Below are positions 6,071 through 6,998 of a stretch of DNA of 64,000 bases, piece after piece. The position numbers and the translations under genes were made by a program. The notes under the pieces are model-generated. The model was not told the origin of the DNA, ran no database searches, and worked only from the letters and a program-made list of their open reading frames with translations. Position 1 is the first letter of the stretch. The number at the start of each line of letters is the position of its first letter. This DNA is from Alphaproteobacteria bacterium (lineage in GTDB: Bacteria; Pseudomonadota; Alphaproteobacteria; Caulobacterales; Maricaulaceae). Location: assembly GCA_016124205.1 (NCBI GenBank), contig WGOD01000001.1, forward strand, positions 62,001 through 126,000, in the 5' to 3' direction.

Positions 6071-6224
6071 GGGGCCATATTCCAGCGCGCCGGGGTTACC
6101 GGAGGCTTAACGGGGCAATTGTGATATTTTTGTGCAGCGCAACATTTCCCTTGACGCGGGTGCGAAGAATCCCCATTAATATGCTGCAACTGCGAAGAGC
6201 AGATTCGAAGAGATAACAGGACCC

Positions 6225-6926
6225 ATGACCGATAACGCTGCCAAAACCGAACCGCAAAAGGCCGTCGAAGCCGCTGCCGAAACCGTGACCACCACGGCTG
6301 AAGCGGCGACCGAAGCTGCCCAGACGACCGTCGCCAAGACGGCTGCGGCCCCGAAGAAGGCGGCCAAGACGGTCAAAACGAAGCCGGCTCGTGCAACCCG
6401 CACGAAAGCCGTCTCGACCAAGAAGCCGGCGCGTCGCAAGGCCGCCGCGAAACCCAAAGCGACCTCCCCGCGCAAAGGAAAAACTCAAATGGCTACCTCT
6501 ACCAAGACCGCCCGCGACACTGTCGAAACGATGACCGCCGCTGGCAATGAAGCTTTCAAGGAAGGTTTCGAGAAGACGATCAAGTCGTTCAACGAAGCCG
6601 GTTCCTTCCACAAGGAAAACCTCGACGCCGTGATCGCGTCCGCGACCGCCGCCGGCAAGGGCGCGGAAAAGCTGAACGCCGACACGATCGCGTTCGCAAA
6701 GAAGTCGATGGAAGACACCGTCGCCGCCTCGAAGGCCCTGACCTCGGCGAAGTCGGTGCAGGAAATGGTCGAAGTTCACACGAACTTCGTGAAGTCCTCG
6801 ATGGACGCCTACCTGGCCCAGATCAACACCGTTACGGACCTGTATGCCGGTACCGTGAAGGACTCGATGGCCCCGCTGAACGCCCGCGTCTCGGCCGCCG
6901 TCGAAATGGTTCAGTCGCAGCGCTAA
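6225..6926 (+). CDS. Phasin family protein with N-terminal Ala/Lys/Pro-rich extension
   Basis: C-terminal ~145 aa phasin-like (FKEGFEKTIKSFNEAGSFHKENLDAVIAS...); N-terminal 88 aa AAPKKAAKTVKTKPARATRTKAVSTKKPARRKAAAKPK. Alternative start ATG at 6489. Confidence 0.85.
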   Translation: MTDNAAKTEPQKAVEAAAETVTTTAEAATEAAQTTVAKTAAAPKKAAKTVKTKPARATRTKAVSTKKPARRKAAAKPKATSPRKGKTQMATSTKTARDTVETMTAAGNEAFKEGFEKTIKSFNEAGSFHKENLDAVIASATAAGKGAEKLNADTIAFAKKSMEDTVAASKALTSAKSVQEMVEVHTNFVKSSMDAYLAQINTVTDLYAGTVKDSMAPLNARVSAAVEMVQSQR

Positions 6927-6962: not shown

Positions 6963-6998
6963 GGCCCGGCACCTTCAGGTGCCGGGCCTTTTCTTTTT
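6963..6998 (+). terminator. Rho-independent terminator downstream of phasin
   Basis: Perfect 11-bp stem GGCCCGGCACC-TTCA-GGTGCCGGGCC followed by TTTTCTTTTT. Confidence 0.95.

Follow-up and report, generated by a model that had tools for sequence, protein, structure and literature searches.

Background

Among the closest described systems are the phasins of Pseudomonas putida, where PhaF binds PHA and carries a basic, disordered, histone-like tail and PhaI is tailless (PMC3574117, PMC5658603). In Ralstonia eutropha the phasin-like protein PhaM attaches PHB granules to the nucleoid (PMC5658603), and it is in species with such separate anchor proteins (PhaF, PhaM) that PHA granule segregation is understood. 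A coat-protein gene with two products is known from the Pdu microcompartment, where a second in-frame start in the gene for PduB gives the N-terminally truncated PduB' and where the shell is linked to the core through the N-terminal region of the longer product (PMC5109269, PMC12108088). A search of open-access full text, subscription papers being outside its scope, gave nothing relevant on alternative starts or on N-terminal tails in phasins.

The phasin gene described here resembles PhaF/PhaI in that a basic-tailed form is predicted from sequence to stand beside a tailless form. Unlike that pair, which is made up of two genes and has a C-terminal tail of AAKP repeats, it is one gene with an N-terminal tail; the protein ends with its phasin domain and has no C-terminal basic tail of the PhaF kind. 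Its family is Phasin_2 (PF09361), whereas the family of PhaF and PhaI was not matched. PhaM differs in being a separate protein rather than the main phasin read from another start. The likeness to PduB/PduB' is that of an organelle coat gene with an in-frame internal start, both products having been shown by experiment there and being predicted from sequence here; protein and organelle are unrelated, and the extension there is short, the body of PduB beginning at residue 38. The tailless Phasin_2 phasins of the Caulobacteraceae share the locus, operator, promoter, Shine-Dalgarno (SD) sequence and ATG, but have no upstream coding tail.

The gene and its starts

In the window, which is the whole 64,000-nucleotide stretch of DNA that was analysed, an open reading frame on the forward strand (6225-6926) encodes a protein of 233 amino acids, this long form being supported by the frame, its translation and the coding constraint on its tail. 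The preliminary description had placed 88 residues upstream of an ATG at 6489 in this frame, and these coordinates are exact. It had also proposed that a phasin core is fused in frame to an Ala/Lys/Pro/Arg-rich tail, and Pfam Phasin_2 indeed matches residues 127-222 (E=2.9e-23). The Phasin_2 score is 82.4 bits against a cut-off of 24.9, and that of the phasin model TIGR01841 is 43.8 against 30.2. At E up to 1 the Pfam search gave no family besides PF09361, the tail searched alone gave no Pfam match, and a sequence search of solved structures with the phasin gave no matches. The tail (88 codons, 6225-6488, forward strand) is of low complexity and rich in Ala, Lys, Pro and Arg; its first half is nearly neutral (net -2) and its second half, at about 6360-6488 with SPRK at 6465-6476, is strongly basic (net +17). 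AlphaFold modelled the full protein with a mean pLDDT of 49, which does not suffice for searching by fold, and predicted, with low confidence, a change from coil to helix at residue 92. From the internal ATG (6489-6491, residue 89) to 6926 the frame encodes the phasin core of 145 amino acids, which matches Phasin_2 at E=8.9e-24 and TIGR01841 above its cut-off. Since this short form holds the whole Phasin_2 match and equals the tailless orthologues, it is by sequence a complete functional unit.

The internal ATG is preceded on the forward strand by the SD sequence AAAGGA (6474-6479), which is supported by its conservation and by a codon test; the earlier report of AAGGA at 6475-6479 with a spacing of 9 nt was confirmed. 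The upstream start at 6225 has AGGA at 6218-6221, only 3 nt from its ATG, within the region GAGATAACAGGA (6210-6221, forward strand), and in the window sequence the duplex dG is -4.0 here versus -6.1 at the internal SD. Thus the claim of two SD-supported starts holds for the internal site, whereas the upstream SD is weak in the window. In relatives the upstream SD is stronger, with a mean dG of -6.6, and the mean for the internal SD is -7.0; from these mean strengths comparable initiation would be predicted at both starts. The mRNA accessibility is 0.68 at 6489 and 0.71 at the upstream start, versus 0.41 (sd 0.08) elsewhere in the frame, but it was dropped as a discriminator because the junction in Maricaulis, where the canonical SD is gone, is likewise highly accessible (0.58).

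Promoter, operator and genomic context

The gene is flanked by dac, on the opposite strand, and by clpS-clpA, an order that is kept across the Maricaulaceae; among the Caulobacteraceae nearly all keep dac upstream, and some have clpS-clpA downstream. The promoter (6151-6182, forward strand) has TTGACG at 6151-6156 followed, near 6175-6182, by a -10-like element. A TTGAC with an AT-rich -10 some 17-20 nt away is kept across the orthologues, and a TGCTGC..TGCGAA stretch upstream is conserved in tailed and tailless orthologues alike. A consensus promoter scanner did not call the promoter at 6151-6182. A promoter within the tail was considered as another origin of a short form, and this scanner, which also misses the real upstream one, found no consensus promoter there. 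The operator-like palindrome TTTTGTGCAGCGCAACA (6128-6144, forward strand) is a candidate PhaR site. Its consensus, TTTTGTGC-N-GCACAAAA, adjoins the -35 box on its 5' side in many of the tailless orthologues and in almost every tailed one, and rows L037-L067 have it at the equivalent place; this conserved palindrome is probably the PhaR operator of the order. An intrinsic terminator with an 11-bp stem and a T-tract (6963-6998, forward strand) closes a transcript that is probably monocistronic. Presence of phaC, named as a check in the preliminary description, is borne out by a copy in the genome (G000:C1:268878-269393), and phaR is present too (G000:C7:558634-558816). One Phasin_2 gene was detected in this assembly, which is roughly 70% complete.

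Conservation of the internal start

A search of the genome collection gave 80 orthologues, 33 of them tailed and 46 tailless, with one more (L068) cut off at the contig start. The 33 together with the window make up a tailed set of 34, all of which fall in the Maricaulaceae in the tree; the named genera are Maricaulis, Hyphobacterium, Oceanicaulis, Glycocaulis, Woodsholea and Marinicauda, and for some records the label goes no further than class. The 46 tailless orthologues begin at the junction position, where the ATG is the ordinary start in the Caulobacteraceae. AGGA or GGAG lies 9-10 nt before the junction ATG in 20 of 20 tailed species outside Maricaulis, and the same SD is present in 46 of 46 tailless orthologues, these species counts not being independent events. 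Where the ATG has shifted, as in L038 (+5) and L053 (+4), the SD has shifted along with it. In the core-protein tree the tailed proteins and L087, which is tailless and long-branched, are on one side of a 100/99 branch and Maricaulis is a clade (100/98) nested within the tailed group; two changes would suffice for the gain of the tail and the loss of the SD.

In one sequence alone the internal SD and ATG are not beyond chance. Taking the genes of the window and the flanking genes of the relatives as the null, AGGA or GGAG occurs at the given spacing before 19 of 287 in-frame ATGs (6.6%) in the former and 91 of 1356 (6.7%) in the latter. The internal site is significant because it is conserved, and selection maintains this start signal in six genus-level groups of the Maricaulaceae. 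The gene has an in-frame internal start with a conserved ribosome-binding site, and the two-start reading of the preliminary description, which was to be judged by such conservation, holds in 20 of the 34 tailed species, where both SD and ATG are retained, and fails in the monophyletic Maricaulis, which has lost the canonical SD and still has the tail.

Selection on the junction and on the tail

The Gly at the junction is encoded by GGA in 17 of 17 species, while GGA accounts for 2 of the 123 Gly codons in the cores. When codons were redrawn from each locus with the peptides fixed, 3.6 of 20 SDs were expected versus the 20 observed. The third base of this GGA shows no synonymous change versus 13-35 expected if neutral (P(0)=1e-6 or lower), an estimate that takes the tree joining the 17 taxa as 3.5 amino acid changes per site and is calibrated, roughly, on tail dS, three of the 17 codons not being strictly homologous. 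In the Hyphobacterium relatives the codons AAG GAC form AAGGA in another register, with the SD moved by 1 nt and the Gly lost. An insertion in L064, L065 and L055 has displaced the PRKxxG motif and its Gly has become GGC, yet AGGA is again found 9 nt before the ATG. By this codon evidence the internal SD is selected at the nucleotide level, beyond the peptide, and the junction peptide G-D/E-x-x-M is in effect a translated Shine-Dalgarno sequence. The leaders of some Caulobacteraceae, which are untranslated, would give the same peptide pattern in that frame, an example being TGDTEM in L109.

All 34 Maricaulaceae tails are open and Lys/Ala/Pro-rich, and each has a net positive charge (+2 to +20) that lies largely in the half adjoining the core; in the species with the SD they are 57-106 amino acids long. 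Pooled over 11 close pairs, the differences in the tail by codon position are 110/88/248, and pN/pS is 0.33 for the tail and 0.12 for the core. By this protein-coding pattern of substitution the tail is translated and constrained, which excludes a gene for the short form only.

Maricaulis

The canonical internal SD is found in none of the 14 Maricaulis sequences (L043-L045, L047-L049, L052, L054, L057, L059, L061, L066, L067 and L071), and both tail and core are kept. The in-frame ATG closest to the junction lies 7 codons deeper into the gene in 14 of 14 (MN[QD]T[IL]E[ST]M), preceded by a purine-rich, non-canonical stretch. Since AGGA still stands before clpA in 14 of 14, Maricaulis has not abandoned SD sequences in general. 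The upstream phasin start of Maricaulis also has a weak SD. Since Maricaulis keeps tail and core without the canonical SD, some species can evidently do without the short form.

N-terminal tails in other lineages

In a class-wide sample of Alphaproteobacteria, Lys/Ala/Pro-rich N-terminal phasin tails occur in other families too; the histone-like tail had been correctly described as N- and not C-terminal, but it is not unique to this gene. A Sphingomonas-type group comprises 25 species of one family and genus (f15/g40, rows L171-L195), whose best named relative is Sphingomonas parapaucimobilis at 57% identity. AGGA or GGAG precedes an in-frame junction ATG in 24 of the 25, with AAGGA or GGAG 7 or 10 nt before it, and the annotated phaP of S. 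parapaucimobilis (L201), which follows phaC, has the same junction layout. These tails are long, Ala/Pro/Lys-rich, often not basic (net -9 to +25) and weakly constrained (pN/pS 0.4-1.0). Since the same junction design is found on acidic to basic tails, DNA binding is not the general reason for the layout. Two other tailed families, f36 (L122, L129) and f46 (L140), whose long N-terminal tails lack an SD-preceded Met at the junction, serve as natural contrasts, and the junction design is thus recurrent and not universal. In L123, from another alphaproteobacterial family and without close relatives in the sample, the tail is net about +35 and the junction reads AAAGGA-ATGATGATC-ATG.

Proposed mechanism and alternative explanations

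Since both starts are under selection, the best explanation, and one we regard as fairly probable, is that one mRNA with two starts would yield long and short phasins that coat the granules; dual initiation as such is likely. We propose that a single promoter gives one mRNA that would be translated from two in-frame starts, initiation at 6225 giving the 233-residue phasin with its disordered basic N-terminal tail and ribosome entry at the internal SD giving, from 6489, the ancestral tailless phasin of 145 residues. The tail would have been added 5' of an ordinary phasin in an ancestor of the Maricaulaceae, and most genera would have retained the old start, with the result that both forms, if both accumulate, coat PHA granules. 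Most of the coat may then consist of the short form, with fewer molecules of the long form tying the granules to the nucleoid or to some other polyanion, one gene thus combining the jobs of Pseudomonas PhaF and PhaI.

If only the long form were made, the internal SD and ATG would be a relic of the tailless ancestor. The site is ancestral, the Caulobacteraceae proteins starting there, and Maricaulis lost it and kept the gene, both of which fit. Yet a relic is expected to decay, and the third position of GGA has stayed silent, AGGA stands at the right distance even after displacement of the motif and a shift of register, and a second lineage has the same layout; we consider this reading unlikely. 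Intragenic SD-like sequences have been proposed to slow ribosomes, and the present one, being at a domain border, might serve as a programmed pause between tail and core and not as a start. A pause would have no need of an ATG at a fixed 9-10 nt, yet ATG and spacing are kept and the SD moves with the shifted ATG in L038 and L053, which makes a pause very improbable. That only the short form is made, with the 88 upstream codons as a leader sequence, would agree with the stronger internal SD in the window, but is hardly credible given the protein-coding substitutions in the tail, its being open in 34 species and the good upstream SDs of most relatives.

With both starts in use, the tail could still act otherwise than as a DNA anchor, either as a charged, disordered brush or by docking PHA synthase or further proteins of the granule. 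The range of charge among the Sphingomonas-type tails, which share the junction design, and the charge of only +2 on some Maricaulaceae tails, make this a real possibility, if somewhat short of an even one. Against it, every Maricaulaceae tail is net basic, mostly next to the core, and it is with such basic tails that PhaF and PhaM engage the nucleoid (PMC5658603). For the long form of the two-start phasin proposed here, DNA anchoring has about an even chance, the analogy of PhaF and PhaM making a tether to the nucleoid plausible.

Significance

With Maricaulis, its canonical SD lost, and the tailless Caulobacteraceae as natural controls, the proposal can be tested directly in cultured strains (Maricaulis maris, Oceanicaulis, Glycocaulis albus, Hyphobacterium indicum and Caulobacter). 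A gene in which internal initiation determines how much anchored and how much plain coat protein is made would be a compact genetic device. Annotation, with its single recorded start for each gene, would overlook it, and it would supply a tunable part for PHA engineering. We suggest tentatively, as something that may well prove otherwise, that the dual-start phasin is a repeated solution in Alphaproteobacteria, arrived at independently in at least two lineages (Maricaulaceae and Sphingomonas-type) that each placed a disordered tail ahead of a phasin and retained the old start, and that its one transcript would fix the ratio of anchored to plain coat and with it the placement and inheritance of the granules.
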